Shown: in pieces, positions 11,096 through 33,247 of the stretch
How the letters are laid out: each line of letters starts with the position of its first letter
Position numbering within the stretch: position 1 is the first letter of the stretch
From: a virus
Direction: 5' to 3' (one strand)
DNA: 34,176 bases
IMG/VR virus record: IMGVR_UViG_3300037493_005411
Span: 1 to 34,176 of that record
The notes under the pieces: model-generated
The model's input: the letters and a program-made list of their open reading frames with translations, nothing else
Told to the model about the DNA's origin: nothing
The model's database searches: none
Made by a program: the position numbers and the translations under genes

Positions 11096-11845
11096 TTAAG
11101 AATACGTTACGGGGTCTTGGGAACCTGCTTCTTTAAATCCCGCGAGTCGCAAGATACAGGAATCACATTGGCCGCAAGGTTTCTCTCCTCCTGTATAGCA
11201 GCTCCATGTTAGATTGTAAGGTACATTCAAGTCGAGACCGCGTTTGATTATTTTTGCTTTGGTCAGCTTGAGTAGCGGAGCTTTTATTTTCAGCACTTTT
11301 CCTTCCACTCCTGCTTTAGTTGCTAAATTGGCAAGGATTGCGAACTGTTCAAGGAACTCTTCTCTGCAGTCAGGGTAACCGCTATAGTCCAACTGATTTA
11401 CCCCTATCCATATTTCTTCAGCTCCAACAACTTCGGCATATCCCATTGCAATACTTAACATAATTGTATTGCGCGCAGGTACATATGTGATTGGAATTTC
11501 TTTAGACATTTCTACCGATGACCTCTCCAAAGGCACATTATATTTATCGTCTGTTAGTGCACTACCGCCTATAGCTCTAAGGTCAACTTTAACTGTTTTT
11601 AACCCTTTAACATGAGTCGTATTTCCATAAGGTGTGGCTTCTACACTCTTAGCAATATAATGCATAACTACATCGTGTATGGCTCTTAACTCAGCACTAT
11701 GTTTTTGACCATATTCAATAGATAATGGATACACATCTCTATTCTCTGAGAGTGCTATAGCTATACATGTTGTAGAGTCCAAACCCCCAGAGGTAAGCAC
11801 TACTGCTTTCTTTCTTTTATCTTCTAACTTACCTGCCATTAGCAT
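11096..11845 (-). CDS. queC: 7-cyano-7-deazaguanine (preQ0) synthase QueC
   Basis: QueC converts 7-carboxy-7-deazaguanine to preQ0 using ATP and ammonia, the last step of the preQ0 pathway. The 249-residue protein has the PP-loop ATP site SGGLDST at 19-25. The family middle motif includes VPARNTIMLSIA and GVNQLDYSGYPDCR. The C-terminal zinc site uses C216, C224, C227 and C230 (CYTGGEKPCGQCDSC). Length is normal for stand-alone QueC; no amidotransferase domain is fused. The start overlaps the end of the HD-domain gene. A second ATG two codons on also overlaps that stop as TAATG, but the first has better spacing to GGAGG. It is the promoter-distal gene of the operon. Confidence 0.95.
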   Translation of the reverse strand: MLMAGKLEDKRKKAVVLTSGGLDSTTCIAIALSENRDVYPLSIEYGQKHSAELRAIHDVVMHYIAKSVEATPYGNTTHVKGLKTVKVDLRAIGGSALTDDKYNVPLERSSVEMSKEIPITYVPARNTIMLSIAMGYAEVVGAEEIWIGVNQLDYSGYPDCREEFLEQFAILANLATKAGVEGKVLKIKAPLLKLTKAKIIKRGLDLNVPYNLTWSCYTGGEKPCGQCDSCILRLAGFKEAGSQDPVTYS

Positions 11846-12420
11846 TTCTTAAGCCTCCTTGCTTCCATTTCTTTATCCAACTTCGGAACTATAGTTGCCA
11901 TATAGTCAGCCATACAAATAGCGTAATCCAACAGCTTAGTAGGTTGAGGACAATATGCATACCAGTGTGACATGTGACACTTTACTAAATCACATATCTC
12001 TTCTATCTTAGGCATTTCAAGCTTAAGTTCCTCATTAGCTAACTTAATTACCTCTGCGCCATCGTAAGGATGCTTCTTACCATAATCATATTGACTCCAG
12101 CCGCAATGTGGATAATACTTCCAATTACCTTCTTCCTTTTGACCTAAGAAAGTCGTTTTCGTTCTACCTATATCATGAAGCAAACAGGCAGCTATTAATA
12201 TATCTAACTGTTCACCCTTAATCTTAAACTCTCTAGCAATCTCCTCTGCACAAGCAACTGTATCAATCAAATGGTCCTCCATTGTTACTTCGTGTAAGTG
12301 ATGCTTACCACTTGGACTCGGGGGAAATGATTGTATCCAGTCCTTATACTTTTCAAGTATTGCTTTCGTTCCTTCTCTTATGTCCTTATTTTCTATTAGC
12401 TTTAGCTCTCGTTCCAACAT
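11839..12420 (-). CDS. HD-domain metal-dependent phosphohydrolase
   Basis: A 193-residue all-helical protein with the HD superfamily signature: H in MEDHLIDT, the HD pair in AACLLHDIGRTKT, H in KKHPYDGAEV and SHW, and a final D in YAICMADYMA. The HD is followed by GRTKT as in nucleotide phosphohydrolases. I choose the ATG preceded by GAGAAGGTGTTTAT; an in-frame ATG eight codons upstream lacks a site. It is coupled to queC, so a role in 7-deazaguanine or nucleotide supply is likely. It might clear phosphates from a pathway intermediate or hydrolyse a dNTP. In archaea the MptB HD enzyme acts after the FolE2-like MptA, which is an alternative, but the other genes here favour preQ0. The substrate cannot be read from sequence. 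Confidence 0.8.
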   Translation of the reverse strand: MLERELKLIENKDIREGTKAILEKYKDWIQSFPPSPSGKHHLHEVTMEDHLIDTVACAEEIAREFKIKGEQLDILIAACLLHDIGRTKTTFLGQKEEGNWKYYPHCGWSQYDYGKKHPYDGAEVIKLANEELKLEMPKIEEICDLVKCHMSHWYAYCPQPTKLLDYAICMADYMATIVPKLDKEMEARRLKKC

Positions 12421-12563
12421 ATAAACACCTTCTCGACAGTCCAATATTTTTTTACTACCTATACCAATATTTATCTTTTTATTTCAATGTCGACCGTATA
12501 GACATTATGTTTTTTCGTTGCGGCGCCTAATTAATATGGGTTAACATTTTAAAATTTTCTTCC
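12421..12563 (-). promoter_or_regulatory. 143-base gap, possible internal promoter for the HD-queC pair
   Basis: This is the only sizeable gap inside the leftward preQ0 gene run. On the minus strand it is AT-rich, with AAAAAGATAAATATTGG about 40-50 bases before the HD start, a plausible but weak archaeal TATA element. A small inverted repeat (AATGTC at 12486-12491 and GACATT at 12501-12506) lies just upstream of it, and a GGCGCC palindrome lies further up. It may allow queC and the HD gene to be expressed separately from folE2. No gene is visible in it. Confidence 0.35.
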
Positions 12564-13352
12564 TCAGGAATCGAAGTTCTTACTACCATGATACTTTTGA
12601 CCTTCTACCATTGCATAAGCATCATGTGTGTGAATACTCTCATAGTTTGTTGCTTCGACCTTATAATAGTTCACTTGTGGATGACGCATTAGCAATATTT
12701 TTGCTTCCCTTACAACATCTTCAACAAATCTTGGATTATTATAAGCCGCCTCTGTCACAAATTTTTCATCAGGTCTCTTTAATAAAGGATATATTGGACA
12801 TGAACCCGCTTTATTTGCAATATCTACTATCTCTTCTATCCATACCCATCCATCACATCTTACTGTAATTGAAACCACTCCTCTTTGATTATGTGCACCA
12901 TAATCACTAATTTCTTTGCTGCATGGACAAAGAGTAGTTACAGGTGTGTGAACAGTTAGAGTTAACTCATCATCATTGGCTTCAAATTCAACCTGAACTT
13001 TAATAAATGAATACATCTTGCTTACAGGCGCCTCTACTTTTATAAAATATGGAAACTTTACCTTTACATATCCACTAGTCGCACCTAATTTCTTTATAAT
13101 TTCAGGCATGATAGTCATAGAGAGTAGTTTCAAACTTAAAGGTTCATCAATACTTGAAAAGTACTGAACAAATCTACTCATATGCGTTCCCTTAATATCT
13201 TCAGGAAGTGAAACACTTGCATTAAATACTCCTACAGTGTGTTGTATTCCGTCGGTCTTGTCCTTCACCATTATAGGTAAAGATAGTCCTCTTATACCTA
13301 CTCTTTGAATGGTTATCCCTCTTTTGTCTGTTCCGTTTTGTACGTCTTTCAT
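12564..13352 (-). CDS. folE2: GTP cyclohydrolase IB (FolE2 family)
   Basis: FolE2-type enzymes open the ring of GTP to 7,8-dihydroneopterin triphosphate, the entry into the preQ0 pathway. The archaeal relative MptA makes the cyclic phosphate form. The 262-residue protein has the family blocks GTHMSRFV (about 55-62), the metal and substrate site CPCSKEISDYGAHNQRG (about 142-158), KRPDEKFVTEAAYNNPRFVE (about 192-211) and NYESIHTHDAYA (about 237-248). Length and motif order are complete, with no truncation. It starts after AAGGAAGGAATAATT, three bases behind the small cysteine protein gene. Linkage to queD, queE and queC makes preQ0 synthesis the obvious role. Confidence 0.93.
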   Translation of the reverse strand: MKDVQNGTDKRGITIQRVGIRGLSLPIMVKDKTDGIQHTVGVFNASVSLPEDIKGTHMSRFVQYFSSIDEPLSLKLLSMTIMPEIIKKLGATSGYVKVKFPYFIKVEAPVSKMYSFIKVQVEFEANDDELTLTVHTPVTTLCPCSKEISDYGAHNQRGVVSITVRCDGWVWIEEIVDIANKAGSCPIYPLLKRPDEKFVTEAAYNNPRFVEDVVREAKILLMRHPQVNYYKVEATNYESIHTHDAYAMVEGQKYHGSKNFDS

Positions 13353-13354
13353 AA

Positions 13355-13699
13355 TTATTCCTTCCTTCCTTTATGACTACGCCATACTCTCTTAATAAAC
13401 TGCGGAAGCAATTTACTATGAAAGTCAGCAACCTTTATTTTTTTACCCTGTGAATTATATACTTCACAATATTTGCAACCATCACTTATACAAAATGCAT
13501 CTAAAGTATCATCACAATCTTCTAAGTGACACTCTAAACATATCTTGCTACCATCGTTAAACATTATAGTTGCTTTCTTCATTAAATCCTCTGTCTCCTC
13601 TTCATCTCCATCTTCATCAAAAAAGGTGACAGGAACAATCTCACTATCTACTCTTTCGATACTAATATCTGTCTTCCCTTTAGAGACAGTTTCAAACAC
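13355..13699 (-). CDS. Small acidic cysteine-rich protein in the preQ0 operon
   Basis: A 114-residue protein of no recognised family with a GTG start, preceded by GAGGTGA that overlaps the end of queE. Residues 22-50 are very acidic and end in a strand-like MFNDGSK segment. Then come cysteines arranged as CLECHLEDC (about 54-61), a further C near 70, and CKYC (75-78), which could bind one zinc ion or an iron-sulfur cluster. The C-terminus is basic and ends in RSHKGRKE. Its place between queE and folE2 suggests a link to 7-deazaguanine metabolism or to the modified DNA, but this is only guilt by association. Confidence 0.7.
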   Translation of the reverse strand: MFETVSKGKTDISIERVDSEIVPVTFFDEDGDEEETEDLMKKATIMFNDGSKICLECHLEDCDDTLDAFCISDGCKYCEVYNSQGKKIKVADFHSKLLPQFIKRVWRSHKGRKE

Positions 13700-14393
13700 C
13701 GCGAGTCACCTCAGGCCAAATAACTTTATGCATTTGGATTTGCATTCTAACTGGAAGCTTATTTCTTAATATTCTACTTGCTAATTCTTTAGGCCAGTCT
13801 TCTTGTTCTTTACCCATACAAGGTGAGAAGATGATACTCCTGTTATTTTTATATTGCTCGGGTATTATTAAATCTACTACATCTTGTGCATAAATAAAAT
13901 CAGCTTCGTCTTTGATAACGAACTTAATTTCTGAATTTTTATCCAGACATCTCATTAATGCATAAATATCCCCATGTGACATAGGATTACCTGAACTTGG
14001 ACATTTAATATCGGTTATTATATAACAACCAAGTTCAATTAATTCCTTAGGTATAGCGTAACTTCCATTTGTTTCTATAGAAATAACAATTGAGCCTCCA
14101 AACCTTTCTCTTAATACCTTTATTAATAATATAAGCTCAGGTGCTTGTATTAACGGTTCACCACCAGTAAAACACACAAACATATAGTTATTGTGTCGAT
14201 ATACTAATTCGCTCTCAATATTCTTTAGAATATCTGCTGCACTTATCTCTGAGAACTTTTCTTCCTTTCTTGCATAGTCACTATCGCACCACTTACAATC
14301 CAAATTACATCCATATAGTCTTATGAACATTGTTGGTATTCCAGCGAAGGAACTCTCACCTTGTATACTTGTAAATATCTCACTTATCTTCAT
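13692..14393 (-). CDS. queE: 7-carboxy-7-deazaguanine synthase QueE (radical SAM)
   Basis: QueE rearranges 6-carboxy-tetrahydropterin to 7-carboxy-7-deazaguanine by radical SAM chemistry. The 233-residue protein begins with ISEIFTSIQGESSFAGIP, the usual QueE opening. It has the cluster motif C29-x3-C33-x2-C36 (CNLDCKWCDS), the SAM motif TGGEPLIQ (about 75-82) and ETNGSY (about 105-110). DIKCPSSGN (about 127-135) contributes to substrate binding in the family. All key residues are present. The start overlaps the queD stop in ATGA. QueE in archaea and phages typically has this compact length. Confidence 0.94.
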   Translation of the reverse strand: MKISEIFTSIQGESSFAGIPTMFIRLYGCNLDCKWCDSDYARKEEKFSEISAADILKNIESELVYRHNNYMFVCFTGGEPLIQAPELILLIKVLRERFGGSIVISIETNGSYAIPKELIELGCYIITDIKCPSSGNPMSHGDIYALMRCLDKNSEIKFVIKDEADFIYAQDVVDLIIPEQYKNNRSIIFSPCMGKEQEDWPKELASRILRNKLPVRMQIQMHKVIWPEVTRGV

Positions 14394-14839
14394 TCTTCTT
14401 CCTCCTTAAACGGCGGTTCTGTATATGCATATGTAACTGCAGACGACCTCTCACCCTCATAAAGTGTTACCTCAACGAGATGAAGCTGCGGGAATCGGGT
14501 TATTAATATATCTGCAAAGTATTGTGCTACATTCTCACAGGTTATTACATCTACAGGCATTTCTATTGCATCATCAAATGAAAAACATAATTCCCTATAG
14601 TCCTCCATTTTTGAACAATCAGAAATCTTCGGAAACCAAACCTTATGGTCAAACTGATTAAGCAGTGCTTTTACATCATTGAAATCTACAACCATTCCGT
14701 CCTCCTGTATAGTTCCAGAAAGTTCAACTACTACCTTCCAGTTATGACCGTGAAGATTAAAGCACTTCGTATCTACTGTATGCACCATATGTGCAGCTGC
14801 TAATGTTACCTCACACTTAATTGCCGAGAGTTTTTCCAT
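14390..14839 (-). CDS. queD: 6-carboxy-tetrahydropterin synthase QueD
   Basis: QueD turns dihydroneopterin triphosphate into 6-carboxy-5,6,7,8-tetrahydropterin. The 149-residue protein has the T-fold signature: zinc ligands H17, H30 and H32 (AAAH then LHGHNW) and the catalytic cysteine C26. It also has GMVVDFNDVK (about 48-57) for the strand and helix at the interface, an FDHK near 68-71, and TCENVAQYFA with LYEGERSSA near the end, the pterin-anchoring glutamate region. Length is slightly above bacterial QueD because of an insertion around 75-90. It starts after AGGAGGAAGCGTT and overlaps the DUF3310 gene by 23 bases. Confidence 0.94.
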   Translation of the reverse strand: MEKLSAIKCEVTLAAAHMVHTVDTKCFNLHGHNWKVVVELSGTIQEDGMVVDFNDVKALLNQFDHKVWFPKISDCSKMEDYRELCFSFDDAIEMPVDVITCENVAQYFADILITRFPQLHLVEVTLYEGERSSAVTYAYTEPPFKEEEE

Positions 14840-15155
14840 AACGCTTCCTCCTATTTATTTCACGCTTTAAATACCAAAGTGCTTTTTCTAAGTCCTCGAT
14901 ATCATTACCTTTTAAATCGCATCTGGCTATATACTTTATAGTATTGCCGAGATTAAATTTCAAATCCCAATCCTCAATAACGTCGATTGGTTCGTATTTT
15001 CTATCAGCATAATGCGGTGGGTGGTTTATTATATCCCTTTCCTTTTCTATCATTGGCACAGGACCATATACTCTTTCCTTAGCCATTCTAGGTTCTGTTG
15101 ATATATCCTTATGCATTCTTGCTTCAGTTTCCTTTTCTTCTTTAGTCTTCGTCAT
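14817..15155 (-). CDS. DUF3310-family phage protein
   Basis: A 112-residue protein. The first 40 residues are charged and probably flexible. The rest is the small DUF3310 helical domain common in phages: NHPPHY (about 45-50), YEPIDVIEDW, FNLGNTIKYIARC, and DIEDLEKALWYLKREI. Some database entries call this family a nucleotide kinase, but it lacks a P-loop and the biochemical role is not established. It sits upstream of queD in the operon, with its start inside the end of the metallophosphoesterase gene behind GGGAGGAAATAGAAG. A function in nucleotide pools would fit, without proof. Confidence 0.8.
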   Translation of the reverse strand: MTKTKEEKETEARMHKDISTEPRMAKERVYGPVPMIEKERDIINHPPHYADRKYEPIDVIEDWDLKFNLGNTIKYIARCDLKGNDIEDLEKALWYLKREINRRKRYGKTLGN

Positions 15156-16293
15156 CTTCTATTTCCTCCCTTTCGGCTTCTACTTCTCTGAAGTCACGAA
15201 GGTCTTCAAGACCCTCCTTCATCCTTCTATACATTCTTATTGTTCCATCAGGTCTAATTATAATCATTGGCATTGACCACTTCATACTTTCAAACCCGAC
15301 TCTGTCTGCATAATCATCATATACCACTGCATTTCCACAGACCATCATATATCTAATCTTTGCACCTACTTTAAATTCACCTACAGCACTTTCATGTGTA
15401 TGTGCCCTTACAATCACATCTGCATTACTTGCATATTGAGTAGAGTCAAATAGAGGTGCTCTGACATTCGGATGTAATGGATTAAATTGACTACCACCAT
15501 TCATCTTGTGTCTACAATATATAATTATCGGTATGTCATTCATTGTCACGATGAATTGGCCGCCATAATTTCCGTACTCTGAATTTTGTTTATTCGCTAA
15601 ATATTGCGTTATACGGAAGTGGTCCGATATTACTGACCTTATTTCGTGATTACCTTCAAACATGATGAGTAATTTCTTTTTGTCTGTTACTTTGTCAAAC
15701 AAGCTCTCGAGTATTGCAAGTTGACCATCCTTATCAACTATATTCGTAGTGCCTGCGGGAGCCATGGCATTAACACTGTTATCAATCATATCGCCAACAA
15801 ATGCTGAATATAATCCAGGTGTTTTAGCTATCACATCGAATACATATTCCATTGCACCATAATCACCGTGTTGATGACCTATATGAAAATCAGCTGCAAA
15901 TATAATTCCAATACTTAGACACCCAGTGAATTCAAACGTTTTAATCTCTGGTAGGAATCGATTGGTTTGTACCTCTGCAACTTTCTTAACACCCTTAAGC
16001 AAATCAGCACCGTACTCGGCGCGGGTTTTATAATCTGCTTTATAGGTAGGCTTATCTTCAAATTGGTCCTCTTCATCAACCCAATATATACAACCAATAT
16101 CCTTCTTATTCGAAGGCCTAAATCTTCGGATAGTTACACCCTTCTGTCTTAAATGAATAAACACCTTTAATACACCAGCTTTAGACATTACCAAAGCCTT
16201 CGCAATCTCTTCAGCAGATATGCCTCCCTCATCGAGCAATATATTATACACTTCATTTTCCCTAATTGACAATAATTTTTTTCTTTCAGCCAT
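15142..16293 (-). CDS. HTH-calcineurin-like metallophosphoesterase fusion
   Basis: A 383-residue two-domain protein. Residues 8-60 form a winged-helix module (RENEVYNILLDEGGISAEEI, then SKAGVLKVFIHLRQKGVTI). From about 125 onwards it is a metallophosphoesterase with all five metal motifs: AADFHIGH, GDMIDN, GNHE, CRHKMNGG and AHTHES. The C-terminal 35 residues are charged. Such enzymes include Mre11/SbcD-like nucleases and nucleotide phosphatases. The DNA-binding head suggests action on DNA. It is coupled to a Cas4-like nuclease upstream (GGTGACTTAATG), so the two may act together in DNA end processing or repair. A phosphatase role in nucleotide metabolism cannot be ruled out. Confidence 0.85.
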   Translation of the reverse strand: MAERKKLLSIRENEVYNILLDEGGISAEEIAKALVMSKAGVLKVFIHLRQKGVTIRRFRPSNKKDIGCIYWVDEEDQFEDKPTYKADYKTRAEYGADLLKGVKKVAEVQTNRFLPEIKTFEFTGCLSIGIIFAADFHIGHQHGDYGAMEYVFDVIAKTPGLYSAFVGDMIDNSVNAMAPAGTTNIVDKDGQLAILESLFDKVTDKKKLLIMFEGNHEIRSVISDHFRITQYLANKQNSEYGNYGGQFIVTMNDIPIIIYCRHKMNGGSQFNPLHPNVRAPLFDSTQYASNADVIVRAHTHESAVGEFKVGAKIRYMMVCGNAVVYDDYADRVGFESMKWSMPMIIIRPDGTIRMYRRMKEGLEDLRDFREVEAEREEIEDDED

Positions 16294-17051
16294 TAAGTCA
16301 CCTGTCCTTCATCCATTTTACATTTTCCTTCGTAAGGGCAATATTGGCAGCCCCAACCCGGATTCGCATCGAATTGTCTATTCTTTATTCCCTCTTTGAC
16401 CTTTTCCAAATTTCTAAAGAATGCTTTTCTCGACGCTTCTTTCAATTCTTCGAAGAACATATCCCCCGACCGCGCAAACATAATACCAATGTATTTCACT
16501 TTTCCAGGTACTATTTTATTTACCTCAGCCAAATGTGCATAACCAGCAAGTTCTAATCTATACTTACTATATGCACTATCATGTTTAGGTTTATCACTTA
16601 CCTTATAATCAATAACTACAAAGTCATCTCCTACCTTATCTATTCTATCTAATGTACCGTAGAACATTAATTCTCTGTCTTCCATATATAATTCTCGATG
16701 AAATGGGAAAAAGTCCATAGTGACCTTTCCCACCCCACCAAGATTATCAAATCGCGTCTGTTCGAGCTTTATAAAGTTCAAGTAATGAATCTCGGTTCCT
16801 AAAAATTTACTATATTCATCAGAGAGAGAAACTTGACCTGAAAGTATCTTTTCTTTATCTATTAGGTCATAAAGTTTCTCCACATCATTATGGAATATTG
16901 TACCAATAACCATAACCTCTGGTAAGTCCTCTGGTTCAAGATTATCGACAACCATATATTTAAATCTCTTAGGGCATTGCTTATACATATGTAGGCCCGA
17001 TTTCGAGAAAGCCATGGTGTCAAAGTTGAACTCCATAAAGCGTCTTGTCAT
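16293..17051 (-). CDS. Cas4/RecB-like PD-(D/E)XK nuclease with iron-sulfur motif
   Basis: A 252-residue protein of the Cas4/AddB-type nuclease group. C26 in YKQCPKRFKY pairs with a C-terminal triad C235, C238 and C244 (CQYCPYEGKC) to give a 4Fe-4S site. The nuclease core shows GTIFHNDVE (motif I histidine), YGTLDRID (motif II aspartate), FVVIDYKV (D-x-K) and LELAGYAHL (motif IV-like). All catalytic residues are present. Family members cut single strands from the end or trim ends. No CRISPR genes or array are nearby, so this is a phage recombination or repair nuclease rather than an adaptation protein. It lies between the DpdA-like fusion and the metallophosphoesterase and is coupled to both. 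Confidence 0.88.
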   Translation of the reverse strand: MTRRFMEFNFDTMAFSKSGLHMYKQCPKRFKYMVVDNLEPEDLPEVMVIGTIFHNDVEKLYDLIDKEKILSGQVSLSDEYSKFLGTEIHYLNFIKLEQTRFDNLGGVGKVTMDFFPFHRELYMEDRELMFYGTLDRIDKVGDDFVVIDYKVSDKPKHDSAYSKYRLELAGYAHLAEVNKIVPGKVKYIGIMFARSGDMFFEELKEASRKAFFRNLEKVKEGIKNRQFDANPGWGCQYCPYEGKCKMDEGQVT

Positions 17052-18670
17052 TAATCACCTGTTATCTGCTCGTCTGCAACAATAACAGCATCATCGAATT
17101 CAGACTCATCTGTTGTTGTGTATTTATCGCCTTTCATCTTTGCGAACAGGTTATTAACTCCCGCGAAGTATGCTCCATAGTTCCAAAGCATCTGTGCGTT
17201 GTACATTGCAGTATTTCTCTTTTCTGCAAGTGTTAGTCCTTGGAATGCCTCACCATCTTCTGGGTTAATCCACTTGTTAATTCTCGTCTGTACAGTTGGT
17301 GTTTGATTATCTACCTGCGTTACACCATATTTGTATAGTTCAACAAGTATCTTGGGGCTTCCAATACCGAAGGCATGAATTCCTAATCTTGGGTTTATCC
17401 TGTGTACATTATCGCAACAGAACTTATATCTATCTAGCGTCTTTTCCATCTTTTCTCCTGCTGAGGAACCGACACCAATGATATTGTTATCATTTTCGAA
17501 GATACCCATTTCGTGGAATGCATTTATACAAACCATGTATTCTCTCTTCTCGTAACCTTGCAACACATAAACCTTTCTTGCATTTGTTTCGAGCTTCATG
17601 AACTTTTCTGCATTCTCAATTGTTATCGCTTGTGCTTCTTGAACACTCATTCCACACTTGTCTAACAATTTTGGCTTGCACAGTACATCCAACATCACAA
17701 CAGTATCAGCGTCTACTGCATTAGCTAAAGCAACTACTTCCTTCTGTCTCTTGAACCAATCAGTATCATTCTTATCCATTGCGATAATTGAACTTGAATC
17801 AATCATCAGAGAGTCCATTAACTTCCTCTTGTTGATGATATCCTCAACCATTGGAAGCCTTGCTCTGGCATGCAATATATGATATGCACTAACCAAAATA
17901 TTCTTCTGTGGTAGCACTTGCCAATCAACCCTAACAGCTGCACCAAGTGTAAAGTAGAGTTTGAAATCTGGCGGAATAAATATATCACGTCCAGCCTTTG
18001 ATTCTTTTGGTGGTGCATCAAGAGCTTCACCAGTTAAATTTGGTATTGCAGCAAGAACCTTCGCCTTGCGGGTATACATTTTAACTTCATCGTTAAGTCT
18101 TGTCTTTGCAATATCACCAGATACCACTTTCTTTGCATACTTAACCCTCTGGTCTTCATCATCTATCTGCTTGAGGATATTGATATCAAACAAAGTAAGT
18201 TTTCCCAGATGGGCCTGTTCCTTCAAATATTCAGGTTGCTTAAGTACAGATAGTACATTCGTAACCGTTGAAGGTGTAGACTGGAATGTTTTACACAATG
18301 CCTTTATATCCTTACCATACTTATCAATCATAGTTTGATAAGATAATGACAATTCATATAACGACAAATCTTGTCTCTGTTCATTAAACAGTACAGCAAG
18401 CTCATATGCTTCTGATTCTGTTATGCCTTCATATACCGCACATGAGACTTCTGTTTCGCCCATCTTTTGTAGGGCTAAAAATCTACAGTGCCCAGATATG
18501 ATTTCATATTCGTCTATATCTGGAGACGGCTTCCAAACGGTTAGTGCACCCTTAAAACCCTTTGTCTTAAAAGTTTCCACCAAGTCATTTATATACTTGT
18601 CGTCGTACTCACTTCTCGGCTGATTCGGCATCAACCGTATTTTCTTCATCGGTAACGTTTCCGTTGACAT
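17051..18670 (-). CDS. dpdA: ParB-domain fused to DpdA-like TGT-fold DNA 7-deazaguanine transglycosylase
   Basis: A 539-residue fusion. Residues 8-110 resemble the ParB/Srx N-terminal domain (LMPNQPRSEY, then SGHCRFLALQKMG at 59-71, the counterpart of the ParB nucleotide-binding G-E-R-R box). Residues 115-170 match the ParB helix-turn-helix middle domain (LCKTFQSTPSTVTNVLSVLK). Residues 255-470 follow the TGT barrel: D291 in MIDSSS (general-base position), D328 in VVMLDVL, VLQGYEKREY at 369-378, IIGVGSS at 397-403, IHAFGIGSP at 431-439, and D454 in QVDNQTP as the likely nucleophile. The TGT zinc-binding cysteine motif is absent, as in DpdA enzymes that insert preQ0-type bases into DNA. It leads the preQ0 operon. 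The strong GGGAGG site fixes the start, 62 bases inside the upstream gene. Confidence 0.85.
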   Translation of the reverse strand: MSTETLPMKKIRLMPNQPRSEYDDKYINDLVETFKTKGFKGALTVWKPSPDIDEYEIISGHCRFLALQKMGETEVSCAVYEGITESEAYELAVLFNEQRQDLSLYELSLSYQTMIDKYGKDIKALCKTFQSTPSTVTNVLSVLKQPEYLKEQAHLGKLTLFDINILKQIDDEDQRVKYAKKVVSGDIAKTRLNDEVKMYTRKAKVLAAIPNLTGEALDAPPKESKAGRDIFIPPDFKLYFTLGAAVRVDWQVLPQKNILVSAYHILHARARLPMVEDIINKRKLMDSLMIDSSSIIAMDKNDTDWFKRQKEVVALANAVDADTVVMLDVLCKPKLLDKCGMSVQEAQAITIENAEKFMKLETNARKVYVLQGYEKREYMVCINAFHEMGIFENDNNIIGVGSSAGEKMEKTLDRYKFCCDNVHRINPRLGIHAFGIGSPKILVELYKYGVTQVDNQTPTVQTRINKWINPEDGEAFQGLTLAEKRNTAMYNAQMLWNYGAYFAGVNNLFAKMKGDKYTTTDESEFDDAVIVADEQITGD

Positions 18671-18953
18671 TTTCTTCTACCTCCCTTATTTCTTCAATTA
18701 TTTCGGTCTCAATTTTGACCAATACTATATGTGGCTTGCGTCTTGATATATCAACCATTTTATCCAATTTGTGATATTTCAAATACACACGCGTTCTGGC
18801 GAGAAAGTTATTAATATCTTTATCGCCCCTCCCTATTTCACTTTCTTCTATTTTAACTGATTTAACATTCATCCTCAGGAATTCATTAATAATATCTTTA
18901 GGATTTGCCGAAGGCTTACCGTCAACATCAGTTACTTCTACCATCTTTACCAT
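18609..18953 (-). CDS. Uncharacterised protein leading the modification operon
   Basis: A 114-residue protein, first gene after the TATA-like promoter at 18977-19001, starting after AGAGGAGGAACCACT. Residues 1-60 are mixed charge with an NPKDIINEFLRMNV helix and a DINNFLARTRVYLKYHK segment. Residues 75-85 form a hydrophobic strand (HIVLVKIE), and the last 30 residues are acidic. The final 62 bases overlap the start of the ParB-DpdA gene in another frame, so the two must be co-expressed. No family is recognised. An accessory or assembly role for the DpdA-like enzyme is possible from position alone. Confidence 0.7.
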   Translation of the reverse strand: MVKMVEVTDVDGKPSANPKDIINEFLRMNVKSVKIEESEIGRGDKDINNFLARTRVYLKYHKLDKMVDISRRKPHIVLVKIETEIIEEIREVEENVNGNVTDEENTVDAESAEK

Positions 18954-19013: not shown

Positions 19014-19229
19014 TCACTTCTTCTTACACGATTCAATCGTTTGGTATATTACATCGGCATCTTTTCGTTGAATGAAGGTACCATATATGACGATTTTGTC
19101 TTTATTGGTGATGACTCTACCTACAAGACGATGGAGGCCGCTAACATAAAAGACACCACGCGTGAGTCCTTTCTCCTTCATAAATTGTTCGTATTCATCA
19201 TAGTTACCAGCAAGTAAAAATATCGTCAT
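19014..19229 (-). CDS. Small phage protein, LLAGNYDEY type
   Basis: A 71-residue protein. I start it at the ATG after GAGGTGTTAAT, directly behind the previous stop; a longer in-frame version lacks a site and would overlap the upstream gene. It begins MTIFLLAGNYDEYEQFMKEK, a pattern seen in short phage proteins of unknown role, then GVFYVSGLHRLVGRVI and a final IYGTFIQRKDADVI. The strand-helix alternation and the final tyrosine-rich part suggest a small compact alpha/beta domain. No catalytic motif is visible. It ends just before the promoter of the modification operon. Confidence 0.7.
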   Translation of the reverse strand: MTIFLLAGNYDEYEQFMKEKGLTRGVFYVSGLHRLVGRVITNKDKIVIYGTFIQRKDADVIYQTIESCKKK

Positions 19230-19230
19230 A

Positions 19231-19563
19231 TTAACACCTCGGAGTACATCTTGGGCAAGTACAATGAATATTTGCAGTACCATCTGGGCTTGCTTTACAA
19301 CAATGGATAGTTAGACAGCACTGTTCACCGCCCTTAGCACCACATACTGGACATTCAGTATATTGAGTTTTGTAATCAACATTGTAATGTAACATTATAG
19401 GATGTGCACTACCTCTAAATTGTCCTCTTACACATCTGCAAAACGGACATACATCAACAGTTTCATATGTAGGTTCTATTTCATCAGTCCGTAGTCTCAA
19501 TCTTTCCATCTTATCCCATTCATTAAATTCACCCATACATCCAGGGCACTTATAACTTCTCAT
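19231..19563 (-). CDS. Multi-zinc-ribbon protein
   Basis: A 110-residue protein rich in cysteine. It has CPGC (6-9) and CPFC (39-42) in the N-terminal half, CPVC (72-75) with a CC pair and HCC following, and a final CTCPRC. That is enough ligands for two or three zinc sites. The spacing resembles rubredoxin-like zinc knuckles used to hold small domains together. It is coupled by ATGA overlap to the upstream gene and by a TAATATG junction to the downstream one. The function is unknown; it may be a nucleic-acid-binding or protein-interaction module. Such cysteine-rich small proteins recur in this gene cluster. Confidence 0.75.
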   Translation of the reverse strand: MRSYKCPGCMGEFNEWDKMERLRLRTDEIEPTYETVDVCPFCRCVRGQFRGSAHPIMLHYNVDYKTQYTECPVCGAKGGEQCCLTIHCCKASPDGTANIHCTCPRCTPRC

Positions 19564-24069: not shown

Positions 24070-26430
24070 CTAGAAATTCCCTAATGTCATTTGTTTTTGA
24101 CCGCTTTTTACCTCGCTCATGGTTAATCCATACGCGATAAGTATCGGTTCTATTTTAGCGTCTATCACTTTGGCGGTCTGTACGTTCCAATCGATAATAT
24201 TATCATATTTAGACAAATCGTCCTCAGGGCCTAACGCAATCCTATCTACATCTTTAACAACTGTCTCACCTTTAAATACATAACTAACTTTACTCGGTAA
24301 ACCATCAGGTACTCTCTTAACATAAAATCTATATGGTCTACTATCTCTTCCTTCACCTACACCAAAGTTCTTTCCCATATAAGTATTGCTAAATATAATA
24401 TCTAACATACTGCCTGGATTACCATATTCCTTATAATCCTTCTTCATGGGTTTCGGTATACCAACTTCCTCTATATCTCCACTCTTTCTCATTCTAATAA
24501 TACTATCCTTAACAAATTGTCTAATCTCCTTCTCGCTCTTATCATGTAATATTAAATCTAATGCACCTACTTGCAATTTCTGACTTGTAGGACTACTATC
24601 GCTTCTTTTACTTTCAAACCCCTTAATAATAACCTCATCAGCCTCTTTACCTTTATACCAACAACACAAACCTGCATATCTCTTTTTCTTTCCACTAAAT
24701 AACAACCTACTATAAACTTGCTCAAACTCAATTATAGGTGGCATCTTCCATCCTTCAGTTTTAGCTTTCTCTTCAAACATAATATTAATATCTTTCTCTA
24801 ACATTAATCCCCACTCTACTGGGTCACCCTCGATAATCCTAGCCAATATACTATCTGTATCCCCATATAGCGCATCCATCTTTCTCTCATCAATATATGC
24901 AATAACTTGTTTAACTAATCCTCTTCCAATGAATGTAGTGCTTTTCGAAATTAACGGATAGTACAATCTGCTTCCAACATATGCAAAGTATCCATACACT
25001 GCAGCAGTCATTTGTTTATATGAATATTGTTCTAAATCATATACCTTATATCTTGGGTCACTTGTTTTTAATCCCTTCATCTTTTTCTTAACTTCGTTTC
25101 TTGCTGTATTTAACTTCTCTAACATCTTAGGAACAATTCCTTGCGGGAATCTCTTAAAATATACACCATCAATTTCAAATAACTCTTCTGGTTTGTATTT
25201 CTTTACATCTTGAGGTTTAACTAATGTCTCAGGAGACATATTGAAACTGATAATGATACTAGGATACATCCTAGCAAAATCCAATGCAATAACGTTCTTA
25301 AATACACCCTTCTTAGGTTGCACCACATATGCACCTTCAAACTTTTCTGTTTCTGCTCCAAAAAACTGACCTCCTGTAGGCACTGCAAATTTTCCATGAT
25401 ACTCTCTTAACAACATCATTCCAGCATATCTTCCAACAGTAAATGAGTCCTCAATAGAACATCCAGCTGTCTTTCTAATTCCATCAAAATGGTCAATCAA
25501 TTCTAAATGTCTATCTATATCAATTAACTTCTGAACATCGTCATTATTATAAGGTTCAATTATATCCAAAAACCTTCTATTCATCTTATTATTATAATCG
25601 AATTTCTCTTCTTTCTCCCAACCTAACTTATACTCATCTCTTGCTGCAATATCATCGAGTTTAAAACTTGGAAACACTTTATTTTGATAAAACTGCTTAA
25701 ATGCAGCTAACAAATCTACTACATTTCTTCCCATGACCCTTACTGTAGGGTACCTTAAATCAACATATCCAAACGGACTCAACATACCTGGGTCAATATT
25801 TAACTTCCTACATCTACTAATGATATAAGCTAAATCATAATAAACATTCCATCCAGTAATAATATCGGGGTCTAATAAATTAACCTTCTTAATAAACTCA
25901 TACAATACTGCAATTTCCTCATTTTCATTTCTAATTAACATCTGAACTATTTTATCTCCATTCATTGAAAATCCAATACATAATATCATATCTTTAGCTG
26001 CATTAGGGTCAATAGCATTGCCAGTAACTTCTGTTTCAATATCTAAATACATCTTATTATACTTCTGACCGTTATCCCTATCTATAGGAACTAAACTATT
26101 ATCAATAACTGTAAATCCAGATTTAATTTCCTTATCAATTAAAAATCTCCAAGGATACAATACATCAGCTTCATAAGTTACTGAATATGCCTCTCTTGCT
26201 GTTCTAACATCTTTAGGTAATCCAACATAAACTTTAGCAACTTCAGTACCATCAACACTAGTCATATACGCATCAGTATCTGTAACCTGGTGTTTAGGAG
26301 CCCAAAAATAAGGAGTATAATCTTCCTTTTCAAAAAGGCAAACCTTACCATTCTCGTCTCGCGCCCTAATTAAAATTACAGGCATTCCTTTTCTTACCGT
26401 GTAATCTGCACACATCAGCAAGTAGTCCAT
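24070..26430 (-). CDS. polB: Family B DNA polymerase with PIP box
   Basis: A 786-residue replicative polymerase with proofreading. Exonuclease motifs are DIETE (D130, E132), NVYYDLAY (D199) and YNNDD (Y294, D298). Polymerase motifs are DFARMYPSII at 384-393, KQMTAAVYGYFAY around 472-484, YGDTDSI at 522-528, and KKKRYAG around 581-587. The last residues QMTLGNF (780-786) form a Q-x-x-L-x-x-F clamp-binding box, so it should use a PCNA-type clamp supplied by the host. The architecture is that of archaeal/eukaryotic PolB rather than protein-primed enzymes; no TPR insertions are seen. No intein. It overlaps the upstream TGT-like gene by 16 bases and starts after GAAGGTTAAACC. Confidence 0.97.
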   Translation of the reverse strand: MDYLLMCADYTVRKGMPVILIRARDENGKVCLFEKEDYTPYFWAPKHQVTDTDAYMTSVDGTEVAKVYVGLPKDVRTAREAYSVTYEADVLYPWRFLIDKEIKSGFTVIDNSLVPIDRDNGQKYNKMYLDIETEVTGNAIDPNAAKDMILCIGFSMNGDKIVQMLIRNENEEIAVLYEFIKKVNLLDPDIITGWNVYYDLAYIISRCRKLNIDPGMLSPFGYVDLRYPTVRVMGRNVVDLLAAFKQFYQNKVFPSFKLDDIAARDEYKLGWEKEEKFDYNNKMNRRFLDIIEPYNNDDVQKLIDIDRHLELIDHFDGIRKTAGCSIEDSFTVGRYAGMMLLREYHGKFAVPTGGQFFGAETEKFEGAYVVQPKKGVFKNVIALDFARMYPSIIISFNMSPETLVKPQDVKKYKPEELFEIDGVYFKRFPQGIVPKMLEKLNTARNEVKKKMKGLKTSDPRYKVYDLEQYSYKQMTAAVYGYFAYVGSRLYYPLISKSTTFIGRGLVKQVIAYIDERKMDALYGDTDSILARIIEGDPVEWGLMLEKDINIMFEEKAKTEGWKMPPIIEFEQVYSRLLFSGKKKRYAGLCCWYKGKEADEVIIKGFESKRSDSSPTSQKLQVGALDLILHDKSEKEIRQFVKDSIIRMRKSGDIEEVGIPKPMKKDYKEYGNPGSMLDIIFSNTYMGKNFGVGEGRDSRPYRFYVKRVPDGLPSKVSYVFKGETVVKDVDRIALGPEDDLSKYDNIIDWNVQTAKVIDAKIEPILIAYGLTMSEVKSGQKQMTLGNF

Positions 26431-27167
26431 GGTTTAACCTTCTCTTCGTTAGCTAGCTCTCTCAGAATATCGCAATTCTGAATCGCGAATGCCAACTGTT
26501 CTTTATCGAACGCCATTTCAGGAGTATATTTAGTACTAAAAATAGAATCCTTTCTAATATACTTATTTTCTAATCCTGCTTTATAAGGCATTGAAGTATC
26601 AAAAGACATAACACTCTTTTGATTACACATACTTAACTCTTTTACACAACTTAATCCTAATAAATGAAACGGAATCGGTATCTTTTCATCGAGTGACCAA
26701 GTAAAAAATGGTCTAATATATCCCGTCATATCTCCCCACTCATCTTTAGCTAAACCAACAATATCTACATCACAACAAATCTTCTCATAACACCAAGTAA
26801 ACTCAGAAAGTGTTCTTCCATGCGGAACACCCATAACCTTAAACTTACATAATTCCTTCTCTGACATACATCCTAAAAACTCTAATGTAAACTCGGCTGT
26901 CTTCTTTGCATCTTTCCAAACGTCTGGTGCTACAATCGTAGTTGCACCAATAGCATCAGCCATTTCTAAATATTTCTCCACTGGATAAGCTTCCCTAAAC
27001 TCAAATACACCATTATCCAATATTAACTTTGCTCCCTCTTCGGTCCTCTTCTTATAAAAGGTTAAGAGGGCCTCCCTCTGTTCAACCCATTGGGCAACCG
27101 TCAGGTAATGCTGACAATTTTTATCCCCGCCGAGATGTTCAAAGGGAGGTATTGAGTAATAGTCCAC
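26415..27167 (-). CDS. Second TGT-fold protein, minimal DpdA-like
   Basis: A 250-residue protein that follows the tRNA-guanine-transglycosylase barrel without any extra domain. LILDNGVFEF has D51 in the place of the D-S-G-G general base, and TIVAPDVWKD has D82 in the substrate-recognition place. VMGVPHGRTLSEF corresponds to the V-Q-G strand, and IPFHLLGLSCVKEL to the H-x-x-G-x-G-x-P turn. SFDTSMP has D190 at the nucleophile place. The zinc-binding cysteine set of bacterial and archaeal TGT is missing, as is the PUA domain of archaeosine TGT, so DNA is a better substrate guess than tRNA. I use the GTG start behind AGGGGTGCATAAC; a GTG three codons upstream is also possible. It lies between the Sak4-like and polymerase genes, coupled to both. 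Confidence 0.75.
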   Translation of the reverse strand: MDYYSIPPFEHLGGDKNCQHYLTVAQWVEQREALLTFYKKRTEEGAKLILDNGVFEFREAYPVEKYLEMADAIGATTIVAPDVWKDAKKTAEFTLEFLGCMSEKELCKFKVMGVPHGRTLSEFTWCYEKICCDVDIVGLAKDEWGDMTGYIRPFFTWSLDEKIPIPFHLLGLSCVKELSMCNQKSVMSFDTSMPYKAGLENKYIRKDSIFSTKYTPEMAFDKEQLAFAIQNCDILRELANEEKVKPWTTC

Positions 27168-27168
27168 G

Positions 27169-28044
27169 TTATGCACCCCTAAGTGTATTATAAAATTCTT
27201 TTAAGCCAGTCCATTTGGTACCAGCTTTGCTTACTTCTGCAAACGTGTATTCTTTTCCTTCGACTTCTAAAGCACCTTTTGCTTTTTCTACTACAGCTAT
27301 AAATACTGTACCCGCACTACTGGTTGTTCTCTTTAAAAACAACTTTTGAAACATAATTCCAGGAGTCGACTTTTCCCAATCTGGTTTACTATCTTTCGTA
27401 ACAAGTTGTCCAGCTCTATATTCTTTTATCTCCTTCATATGAGTTGTAAAAAACCTATCACAGTGCAAGTGCTTTATTAACTGAATTACGGTCAAATAAC
27501 GTCTATTTCTTTTTGACCACTGCCATTGGTCCTTAATCTGCACATTGGGGTCTACTTTAAGGTCCTCGTATCTCATTACTTGTTCGCAAATTTTAAGTAG
27601 TGTATCAAGACCATCTAAACAGACAGCCTTGAGATTTAAACTTTCTTCGTTCTCAGTAATATACCTAATGATTGCGAGAACCTTATTATATGTCGTAACA
27701 TAATCGACCTTGCCATCCTGTAGCAACGTTGTGGGGTCCAGAATAATCATACCATCGTCATCAGGAAAGAACTTTTCCTTTAGAGGAGAACAGCTAGCAT
27801 CAAGGTCTATTATTATAACCTTTTTGCCAGCCTTAACCTCCTCTTCAGACCTACAGTCCATCATTACTCCAGATTTGCCCACACCGTCTTCGCCATAGAT
27901 AGCTGCACAGATAGGAGACCGGGTTTCGCGTTTAATCGCGCCTGTTATCCAAGAGGCAACTTCAGCATTGTTGAACGTCTTTGGTGCTTCGTCCTCTGCT
28001 GTGGCTTTCCCTGAAAGACCACCCCAGCCTCCATCTTCTGGCAT
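27169..28044 (-). CDS. Sak4-like RecA-fold ATPase
   Basis: A 291-residue P-loop ATPase. The first 25 residues are flexible. Walker A is GEDGVGKS (51-58), Walker B is in LKAVCLDGLDTLL (about 138-150), and the segment RFFTTHMKEIKEY (about 197-209) fits the sensor strand of AAA_24/Sak4 recombinases. These RecA-core proteins promote single-strand annealing and work with a partner SSB in phage recombination. The gene directly upstream encodes the ssDNA-binding candidate, the usual arrangement. It starts after GGTGAATTAAA, which also carries the previous stop. The exact subtype cannot be proven by eye. Confidence 0.82.
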   Translation of the reverse strand: MPEDGGWGGLSGKATAEDEAPKTFNNAEVASWITGAIKRETRSPICAAIYGEDGVGKSGVMMDCRSEEEVKAGKKVIIIDLDASCSPLKEKFFPDDDGMIILDPTTLLQDGKVDYVTTYNKVLAIIRYITENEESLNLKAVCLDGLDTLLKICEQVMRYEDLKVDPNVQIKDQWQWSKRNRRYLTVIQLIKHLHCDRFFTTHMKEIKEYRAGQLVTKDSKPDWEKSTPGIMFQKLFLKRTTSSAGTVFIAVVEKAKGALEVEGKEYTFAEVSKAGTKWTGLKEFYNTLRGA

Positions 28045-31992: not shown

Positions 31993-32226
31993 TTAAGGGT
32001 AAAGTTGTTCGGAAAACTCTTGCCCTTCTTGTGTTGAGGTAAGCGCTAATAATTCGGCCTCTTCATCCCATACTGGGGATTTGGAAGGTATCTCTTTAAT
32101 TATGTCTCTGTATACAATATTTTGTCTATTACCAAGGTTACAGCAGTAGGCATAGTAAGCAGCGGCAATGGATATGACAAAGAGTATAACACTGCATAAT
32201 TCCAAAACATCACCTAAGGAACTCAT
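31993..32226 (-). CDS. Small N-terminally anchored membrane protein
   Basis: A 77-residue protein with one hydrophobic span (about 6-28, DVLELCSVILFVISIAAAYY). A short basic region and an acidic, soluble tail follow (residues 50-77). The start overlaps the deoxyribosyltransferase-like gene by 17 bases. The nearest Shine-Dalgarno sequence is poor, so the exact start is uncertain. The role is unknown. Confidence 0.55.
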   Translation of the reverse strand: MSSLGDVLELCSVILFVISIAAAYYAYCCNLGNRQNIVYRDIIKEIPSKSPVWDEEAELLALTSTQEGQEFSEQLYP

Positions 32227-32632
32227 CTTCCATTTCGTTGAAGTTTGTATATATGTCTGTGCAATGATGTTTTAACCAAGGATGATTTACATAACCATTT
32301 GTTATAACTCCTGCTATTAGTTTTTTCGATAGGTGTGCATAAACTATTTCCATTATTGTTCCATAGCTAGTATCCCCATTTATATATGCAATTATTGCAT
32401 CACAATCCTCTATAAGTGCTAAATCTTCTTCAACAATTAATCTTGGATTTAGGCTTCCTAACAAATTTAAAATATTTATATTCCCCTCATCGGCTCTTCT
32501 AACCAATTCTTGTTCCTTTTCTGAATCATAAAAAGGATTGACAAACGAATGCTGAAATCTACTCTCTGCTTTAAGTTGCCACTCTCTGATGAATTTGCGC
32601 GTACTAAATGGATGTGCAAGATAAATCTTCAA
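32210..32632 (-). CDS. Nucleoside 2-deoxyribosyltransferase-like protein
   Basis: A 140-residue protein using a TTG start behind AGGTGATTTAAG. It begins MKIYLAHPFSTRKFIREWQL, the typical first strand and loop of the nucleoside 2-deoxyribosyltransferase superfamily. NPFYDSEKEQ (about 32-41) and VEEDLALIEDCDAIIAYING follow, and then TSYGTIMEIVYAH (about 88-100), where E94 would be the nucleophile. These enzymes cleave or exchange the base of deoxynucleosides and deoxynucleotides. Here it would remodel nucleotide pools, perhaps for the modified base. Relatives with purely hydrolytic action exist, so the reaction is not fixed. Confidence 0.75.
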   Translation of the reverse strand: MKIYLAHPFSTRKFIREWQLKAESRFQHSFVNPFYDSEKEQELVRRADEGNINILNLLGSLNPRLIVEEDLALIEDCDAIIAYINGDTSYGTIMEIVYAHLSKKLIAGVITNGYVNHPWLKHHCTDIYTNFNEMEDEFLR

Positions 32633-32633
32633 C

Positions 32634-33098
32634 TTAAATCACCTTAGTCTCTCTGTCATAAGGGAATTTTAACCAGCCACAGTCTTCAGATAATAACACT
32701 CCTATATAATCTGGGTCTATTCGTGAAGTTGACCTTTTATATACAACGCCAGTATGAACAGATGTAAATTTTAATCCAGCCAATACACCCTTAACATCAG
32801 AAAGTGTTACACCTTCATCTGCAATATCATCAACTAATAATATCATATCTGTATATTGAAGTGTATGCAATCCCGTTAGATGTGACATTCTCGTTTCGCC
32901 ACTAGGTTCCTTATCTTTATATCTCTGTGCAAAAATAACTAACATCGGGATATTTAGCATTTTGCTTATATAAAGAGCAGGTACTAAACCTCCTCTACCA
33001 ATACCAATTACAACATCATACTTGATATTACTACCCTTTATTTGTGCAATCATAGTATCGATGTGACTCACATATGTATTCCAATCAACTTCAACCAT
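32634..33098 (-). CDS. Type I phosphoribosyltransferase
   Basis: A 154-residue protein with the PRTase fold. The ATG at MVEVDWNTYV follows AAGGAGTGGAATATA, with good spacing; an upstream TTG in frame lies inside the previous gene. DVVIGIGRGGLVPALYIS (about 28-45) forms the PPi loop, and ILLVDDIADEGVTLSDV (about 86-102) is the PRPP-binding motif with its acidic pair. Substrate specificity (xanthine/hypoxanthine/guanine type by look, VDDIADEG) is not readable. It sits with the deoxyribosyltransferase-like gene, and the pair suggests base salvage or exchange. Confidence 0.85.
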   Translation of the reverse strand: MVEVDWNTYVSHIDTMIAQIKGSNIKYDVVIGIGRGGLVPALYISKMLNIPMLVIFAQRYKDKEPSGETRMSHLTGLHTLQYTDMILLVDDIADEGVTLSDVKGVLAGLKFTSVHTGVVYKRSTSRIDPDYIGVLLSEDCGWLKFPYDRETKVI

Positions 33099-33247
33099 TA
33101 TATTCCACTCCTTATCCAAACGTTTGTTTCATAAGCTACTTTGCAATCATTAAGAAATTCTTCTTTACTCAATCCATGAGTTAGATAACTTTCAGAGACA
33201 GCATCAAGAGTCTTTAGTAGTCTGTCTCTTAAGTCATCTCTCATCAT
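33098..33247 (-). CDS. 49-residue hypothetical protein
   Basis: A short helical protein (MMRDDLRDRLLKTLDAVSES and onward). It fits exactly between two genes, overlapping the upstream stop in ATGA and giving TAATG with the PRTase start. The CGGTGATTGA site precedes it. It carries a single cysteine and has no family match. Its coupling makes it credible. Confidence 0.6.
   Translation of the reverse strand: MMRDDLRDRLLKTLDAVSESYLTHGLSKEEFLNDCKVAYETNVWIRSGI

Follow-up and report, generated by a model that had tools for sequence, protein, structure and literature searches.

The DNA of an uncultured phage examined here (the window) is a stretch of 34,176 nucleotides, IMG/VR record IMGVR_UViG_3300037493_005411 from position 1 to 34,176, whose minus strand encodes a polypeptide of 539 residues in which a ParB module is joined to a DpdA-type barrel of the tRNA-guanine transglycosylase (TGT) fold. 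We consider it rather probable (about 0.6) that this fusion is a DpdA-type DNA-guanine transglycosylase, which serves as a ParB-targeted accessory second enzyme inserting the 7-deazaguanine preQ0. Very probably it is a transglycosylase for preQ0 in DNA, because FolE2, QueD, QueE and QueC are encoded in the same operon. Hereby, the operon would supply preQ0 and the DpdA barrel would exchange guanine in the phage DNA to yield dPreQ0. The N-terminal ParB module, consisting of a ParB_N and a helix-turn-helix (HTH) domain, would tether the transglycosylase to DNA, and the tethered enzyme may modify a selected region, or a certain form, of the phage DNA. In doing so it would work alongside a solo DpdA, probably the more conserved enzyme of the lineage.

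Domain architecture and predicted structure

17051..18670, minus strand: ParB-DpdA fusion, 539 residues, start at 18670 and stop at 17051
18371..18493, minus strand: degenerate ParB nucleotide pocket, GHCR at residues 60-63 (canonical GERR) and FNEQR at residues 95-99 (canonical ENLQR)
17307..17800, minus strand: catalytic part of the barrel with D291 (LMIDSS), D328 (LDVLC), Q371-G372, G399/G401, H432 and D454

The fusion exceeds the curated cut-offs of 4/4 Pfam families, namely ParB_N at residues 4-96 (37.4 bits, cut-off 26.3), HTH_ParB at residues 100-196 (35.0 bits, cut-off 22.6), DpdA PF23859 at residues 326-440 (39.4 bits, cut-off 27) and TGT PF01702 at residues 305-468 (30.3 bits, cut-off 26.3). 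The NCBIfam model parB_part (TIGR00180) additionally matches residues 5-180 with 78.9 bits (cut-off 58.45). Profile searches of both halves thus bear out the initial annotation, which had recognized a ParB-type domain and a TGT-like barrel in one frame of 539 residues. While this architecture stands, the boundaries proposed for the two parts (residues 8-170 and 255-470) have to be revised to about 4-200 for the ParB part and about 232-519 for the DpdA/TGT barrel, with a low-confidence linker (about 210-231) and tail (516-539).

An AlphaFold2 model built on 34 sequences has a mean predicted local distance difference test score (pLDDT) of 84.7 and a predicted template modelling score (pTM) of 0.57, with the linker (about 219-227) and the tail again being unreliable. 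Because of the pTM value, the position of one half relative to the other is not trustworthy. According to Foldseek, the N-terminal half resembles ParB structures bound to cytidine diphosphate (CDP) or an analogue of cytidine triphosphate (CTP), i.e. 7bnk (E 3e-14), 7bnr and 6sdk, and the C-terminal half resembles 7ui4, 'DNA preQ0 insertase DpdA' (E 2.7e-9), as well as TGTs. VIA-align superimposes the fusion on the archaeosine TGT 1iq8 with Z 24.8 and a root-mean-square deviation (rmsd) of 3.1 over 274 residues, and on the preQ0-containing TGT 2qii with Z 24.3 and an rmsd of 3.1 over 271 residues. The predicted structure of the full protein hence contains the anticipated TGT barrel and matches both ParB-CDP/CTP and TGT/DpdA structures. 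Among solved ParB structures, Thermus Spo0J (E 7.6e-17) and Noc are closest in sequence, and 7ui4 is matched weakly. The BFVD entry A0A6J5RUN9 ('ParB/Sulfiredoxin') can be aligned to the greater part of the model and is a candidate for a further fusion.

Recurrence and selection

The occurrence of the fusion is confirmed. Since it recurs in other contigs, an assembly artefact is very unlikely, and a chimera was rejected accordingly: L006 from IMG/VR encodes a fusion of 530 residues that is 75% identical to the window protein over its full length, and L086 from IMG/VR one of 481 residues that is about 50% identical. In L098 (IMG/VR) the start of ParB_N is cut by the contig end and the remainder of the fusion is intact. 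L007 is a probable further member, with a DpdA half that is 71% identical and a contig that breaks at the linker. Other candidates (L010, L016, L042, L048 and others) were discarded, being long N-terminal frames without a second domain, i.e. high-GC open frames. Two further scans for fusion members added none, 50,697 phage records and 72,556 plasmids contained none covering 80% of the fusion query, and no fused form was confirmed among the GTDB contigs scanned. Single-protein scans for close relatives and an alignment-based GTDB scan likewise gave no fusion. Among 49 records with a phage DpdA, a set that includes L007 (cut by the contig end) and leaves out L086 and L098, ParB_N and DpdA share one frame only in the window and L006.

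In both halves, nonsynonymous differences lie far below synonymous ones, the DpdA half being the more constrained. Between the window and L006, the proportions of nonsynonymous differences (pN) are 0.17, 0.20 and 0.14 and those of synonymous differences (pS) 0.80, 0.63 and 0.72 for ParB_N, HTH and DpdA, respectively. The corresponding nonsynonymous to synonymous rate ratio (dN/dS) is 0.17 for the HTH and 0.07 for DpdA, and is not computable for ParB_N, where synonymous sites are saturated; L086 versus L098 yields 0.16 and 0.07 for HTH and DpdA.

Active site

To compare the active sites, the 5 fusion members were aligned with 29 other phage DpdAs. Invariant columns include D291, S292, D328, C331, Q371, G372 and Y378, followed by G399, G401, H432, F434, G435 and D454. 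The three aspartates expected for base exchange (D291, D328, D454) are thus located where they had been placed before and are conserved without exception in this set. Moreover, H432 aligns with H196 of the DpdA of phage 9g, and the histidine at this position is the residue used to separate DpdA from DpdA2 (Hutinet, PMC6884629). A C-terminal helix motif is also similar in 9g DpdA and the fusion (YESRAAYNLWAY against YNAQMLWNYGAY). The zinc site of TGT is absent, with no cysteine beyond residue 419, in agreement with the earlier statement that the zinc cysteines of tRNA enzymes are missing. The five fusion catalytic domains form one clade (support 100/100).

The preQ0 operon

The fusion lies in a run of minus-strand genes, listed here with their conservation in the fusion-bearing L006 and L007 and in G048, a sister phage of the window phage:

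19014..19283, minus strand: small gene preceding the fusion on the same strand
18609..18953, minus strand: small conserved gene overlapping the fusion start, with a clear homologue in L006 and a weak one in G048 (z 6.2)
16293..17051, minus strand: PD-(D/E)XK nuclease (Cas4/exonuclease-like), the next operon gene, conserved in L006, L007 and G048
15142..16293, minus strand: HTH and calcineurin-like phosphoesterase (metallophosphoesterase)
14817..15155, minus strand: small protein, PHROG 'nucleotide kinase', which we take to be DUF3310-like
14390..14839, minus strand: QueD
13692..14393, minus strand: QueE (radical SAM)
12564..13352, minus strand: FolE2 GTP cyclohydrolase
11839..12444, minus strand: HD-domain hydrolase between FolE2 and QueC, retained in L006 and G048
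11096..11845, minus strand: QueC without a fused amidotransferase domain

After the fusion, the order is nuclease, HTH-phosphoesterase, DUF3310-like gene, QueD, QueE, an unknown gene, FolE2, HD hydrolase and QueC. The preQ0-making operon of the initial annotation is upheld, as FolE2, QueD, QueE and QueC are all encoded on the strand of the fusion, and the four genes lie downstream of it in the window, L006 and L007. The fusion does not strictly head this operon as had been assumed, because the two small genes at 18609-18953 and 19014-19283 precede it; moreover, the PD-(D/E)XK, HTH-metallophosphoesterase and DUF3310-like genes stand between it and queD. QueF was considered as an operon member and rejected, the gene in question being FolE2 according to Pfam and NCBIfam. 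Neither QueF nor an amidotransferase was found among the operon genes, and for this reason dPreQ0 is the predicted product, based on pathway knowledge as in PMC6884629. In L006, a ThyX thymidylate synthase gene (L006:4782-5414) is inserted into the otherwise syntenic que operon.

The second, stand-alone DpdA

26415..27176, minus strand: stand-alone DpdA-like transglycosylase, 253 residues, flanked by the genes of an AAA ATPase and DNA polymerase B

The solo DpdA is 26-28% identical to the DpdAs of Cellulophaga phiST (a que-cluster gene) and Flavobacterium immuto (annotated), and its model (pLDDT 88, pTM 0.87) matches TGTs. Since this second enzyme is present, modification as such does not require a fusion to ParB. 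G048 is 60-69% identical to the window phage in polymerase, ribonucleotide reductase and a 383-residue conserved protein. It possesses the same que operon and a solo DpdA at the same place (L134:8001-8765), with 132/247 residues identical. In G048 the interval from the small upstream gene to the nuclease gene encodes no ParB-DpdA, and a search of the whole contig finds none. As operon and solo DpdA are present without the fusion, the latter is accessory in this lineage, and the solo DpdA is the enzyme retained. L006 and L007 give no solo-DpdA match, but both are fragments, and L006, which ends before that region, is uninformative in this respect. Among the IMG/VR loci fetched for the immuto/phiST DpdA family, no ParB relative was found. 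With regard to the earlier interpretation, a ParB-DpdA beside a complete preQ0 pathway is retained, the second DpdA at 26415-27176 had been overlooked, and a CTP clamp of the canonical kind is not supported for the following reasons.

The ParB nucleotide pocket

In Bacillus subtilis ParB, E78 and E111 are needed for CTP hydrolysis, and the E78Q and E111Q variants still bind CTP and close; in PadC both glutamates are absent, and CTP is bound yet not hydrolysed (PMC8494293). In Streptomyces coelicolor ParB, substitutions of arginine in GERR abolish CTP binding (PMC12207404). In the fusions, the C-motif (GERRxR) reads GHCRFL in the window protein and GHCRYL in L006, and L086 carries an insertion, the arginine being displaced as well. 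The P-motif (ENLQR) reads FNEQR in the window protein and L006 and YNEKR in L086 and L098, i.e. it is altered in all four readable fusions. Compared to Bacillus ParB, E78 is thus replaced by H, R79 by C and E111 by F or Y; GxxR and the P-motif Asn are retained in the window protein and L006. Both motifs are intact in 5/5 phage ParBs retrieved by plain tblastn (ENLQR or ENIQR). Among ParB-only viral relatives, 40/41 are GERR-like and 40/41 ENLQR-like, whereby only the first count is unbiased, as the set was mostly fetched by a pattern covering the second motif.

Because the GERR and ENLQR motifs are degenerate at positions that matter for hydrolysis or binding in other ParBs, a canonical CTPase cycle is unlikely in the fusion. 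Any nucleotide binding by the ParB part would more likely proceed without a normal CTPase cycle, in a PadC-like manner or with another nucleoside triphosphate (NTP). The motifs are also compatible with a DNA-binding module that does not hydrolyse its nucleotide or is gated in another way. Hence, with the hydrolysis glutamates replaced and one GERR arginine lost, the CTP-controlled clamp in its canonical sense, as originally proposed, is not supported. No Pfam match to the ParB C-terminal dimerisation domain was obtained for the fusion, whose C-terminus is the DpdA barrel. No ParA was found among the proteins scanned, a subset of the genes of a fragmentary window. PADLOC gave no DpdB match although DpdA was matched, the content of the library with respect to a DpdB model being unchecked.

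Weighing of alternative functions

Several findings weigh against the assignment of the fusion as a ParB-targeted DNA preQ0 transglycosylase. Its catalytic domain is about 20-24% identical to other DpdAs and forms a distant branch, which a long, saturated stem joins to them in the tree; the DSGGF of DpdAs is DSSSI in the fusion. It scores 26.9 bits against NF041059, the NCBIfam equivalog for DpdA of bacterial systems (cut-off 200), and thus is no member of this narrow equivalog, while the broader Pfam DpdA family does include it. The C-terminus of the L086 fusion is disrupted. Neither the L086 nor the L098 contig yielded a QueC, so that the enzyme must there use host preQ0, genes beyond the fragment or another base. 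A search of the window for parS gave a best match that has 3 mismatches and falls within coding sequence; the window and its relatives have no palindrome in common. Furthermore, all fusion-bearing contigs are metagenomic fragments. The disruption in L086 takes the form of a deletion or frame change near the fusion C-terminus (L086:6170-6260), reflecting either an assembly error or decay.

A ParB part that serves as a nucleotide-sensing or regulatory module of the DndB/DpdB kind, which would not target the enzyme but gate it according to the NTP level or act as a repressor of the operon, appears unlikely. Such a role would be in line with ParB-fold fusions binding CTP, ATP or GTP with a pocket that varies with the fused partner and a nucleotide specificity that is not predictable from sequence, as stated in PMC12704722, and with the partnership of bacterial DpdA and DpdB, the latter being regarded as a ParB-like ATPase (PMC12839542). 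It fits poorly with a ParB-type HTH that is intact, as in DNA-binding ParBs, and with the missing DpdB profile match in PADLOC mentioned above. Quite unlikely, too, is a clamp under CTP control which is loaded at a parS-like site and achieves processive modification by sliding. Although CDP/CTP-bound ParBs are the best structural matches of the ParB part, GxxR and the P-motif Asn are kept, and loss of the glutamates alone does not preclude CTP binding and closure, R79 is replaced along with both glutamates, the C-motif arginine is also displaced in L086, and loss of a GERR arginine abolishes binding in S. coelicolor. In addition, the enzyme stands in place of the ParB dimerisation domain, and the loading at a nucleation site suggested at the outset finds no counterpart in the parS and palindrome searches. 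A hydrolysis-dead variant, in which the ParB clamp stays closed on DNA and lets the transglycosylase write preQ0 along one region, is a distinctly improbable idea. If true, the region might for example lie near the packaging or replication start and the free second DpdA would modify the genome diffusely, so that one phage would carry a two-layer, position-coded DNA modification.

That the solo DpdA carries out the modification and the fusion is catalytically idle, or now a DNA-binding regulator, is very improbable. While G048 makes do with a solo DpdA beside the same operon, no catalytic residue varies among the 5 fusion members, and constraint is stronger on the DpdA half than on the ParB half. 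A modification of RNA (tRNA), as carried out by TGT, would be conceivable from the common fold and yet is scarcely credible, given the absent zinc-binding cysteines, the DNA-binding nature of the fused ParB module, DpdA as best family and the lack of a tRNA gene in the window. We therefore favour a ParB-targeted, accessory DNA preQ0 transglycosylase.

Relation to known systems

The phage DpdAs described for Enterobacteria phage 9g and mycobacteriophages (PMC6884629) share with the fusion a TGT-like barrel, three aspartates, the H196-equivalent histidine and neighbouring preQ0 genes. Whereas the phage DpdAs examined are single-domain proteins, the fusion adds a ParB module, and its catalytic domain belongs to a separate, distant clade. 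The immuto/phiST DpdA represents the family of the solo transglycosylase of the window phage, not that of the fusion. Side by side with the 9g dpdA (L131:2006-3960) lies a gene annotated as replicative clamp, an independent hint at a possible cooperation of DpdA enzymes with DNA clamps. The bacterial Dpd system likewise pairs DpdA with a ParB-superfamily protein (DpdB) for preQ0 in DNA. There the two are separate, in contrast to the single polypeptide with a classical ParB_N and HTH and no DpdB profile match found here. For mycobacteriophage CRB2, it has been proposed that a protein of the ParB superfamily encoded next to DpdA resembles DpdB (PMC6392294). With ParB of ParABS, Noc and PadC the fusion has the ParB_N and HTH fold in common (its model is near 7bnk and 6sdk). 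It differs from ParABS ParB in the loss of the CTP-hydrolysis glutamates, which PadC lacks as well, and in the absence of the C-terminal dimerisation domain.

ParB-guided DNA modification in phages has published precedent in ParB-DNA methyltransferase fusions and the ParB-Tls locus (PMC6536676). These place an N-terminal ParB on a DNA base-modifying enzyme, as predicted for the fusion, although they transfer a methyl group, whereas the ParB-DpdA is predicted to exchange bases. A suggestion of Iyer 2013, cited in PMC6536676, is that ParB-like proteins guide the modification machinery to sites while DNA is being packaged. In L086 and L098 (contig L132) the fusion is found upstream of sulfotransferase, terminase-like and portal genes, an arrangement that resembles the ParB-Tls locus. 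Hereby, the terminase profile matches in L086/L132 are weak and the portal match in L132 is strong. In the window no terminase was recognized, and a location of the fusion upstream of a terminase is not seen there.

A ParB-DpdA fusion was not found in the literature searched, an earlier mention in Iyer 2013, Cui 2023 or supplements not being excluded. The main text of the ParB-fold survey PMC12704722 does not name DpdA, TGT or transglycosylase. While ParB-fused DNA modifiers and DpdA are each known already, their combination appears undescribed. To our knowledge, it is not understood how DpdA chooses which guanines to replace. The role of ParB domains on phage DNA-modifying enzymes is also stated as unknown (PMC12783734). 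A single-chain ParB-DpdA makes both questions testable, with the window phage (two DpdAs, one of them ParB-fused) and G048 (solo DpdA only) as a natural comparison pair. It furthermore adds base exchange to the activities fused to ParB and provides a ParB in which both CTP-hydrolysis glutamates are lost.

Neighbouring genes

The Cas4-like nuclease (16293-17051) and the phosphoesterase (15142-16293) share a gene run with the modification genes, and the modification could protect the phage DNA from the phage's own nucleases. A phosphoribosyltransferase that is nearest to xanthine and hypoxanthine-guanine types is encoded in the window (32634-33119, minus strand) and in G048 (L134:11576-12034); in immuto a phosphoribosyltransferase gene lies inside the que cluster (L094:5792-6187). 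Such an enzyme might recycle the guanine that base exchange sets free. Directly downstream of it in the window is a nucleoside 2-deoxyribosyltransferase-like gene (32210-32632, minus strand), with a Pfam score just below the cut-off.

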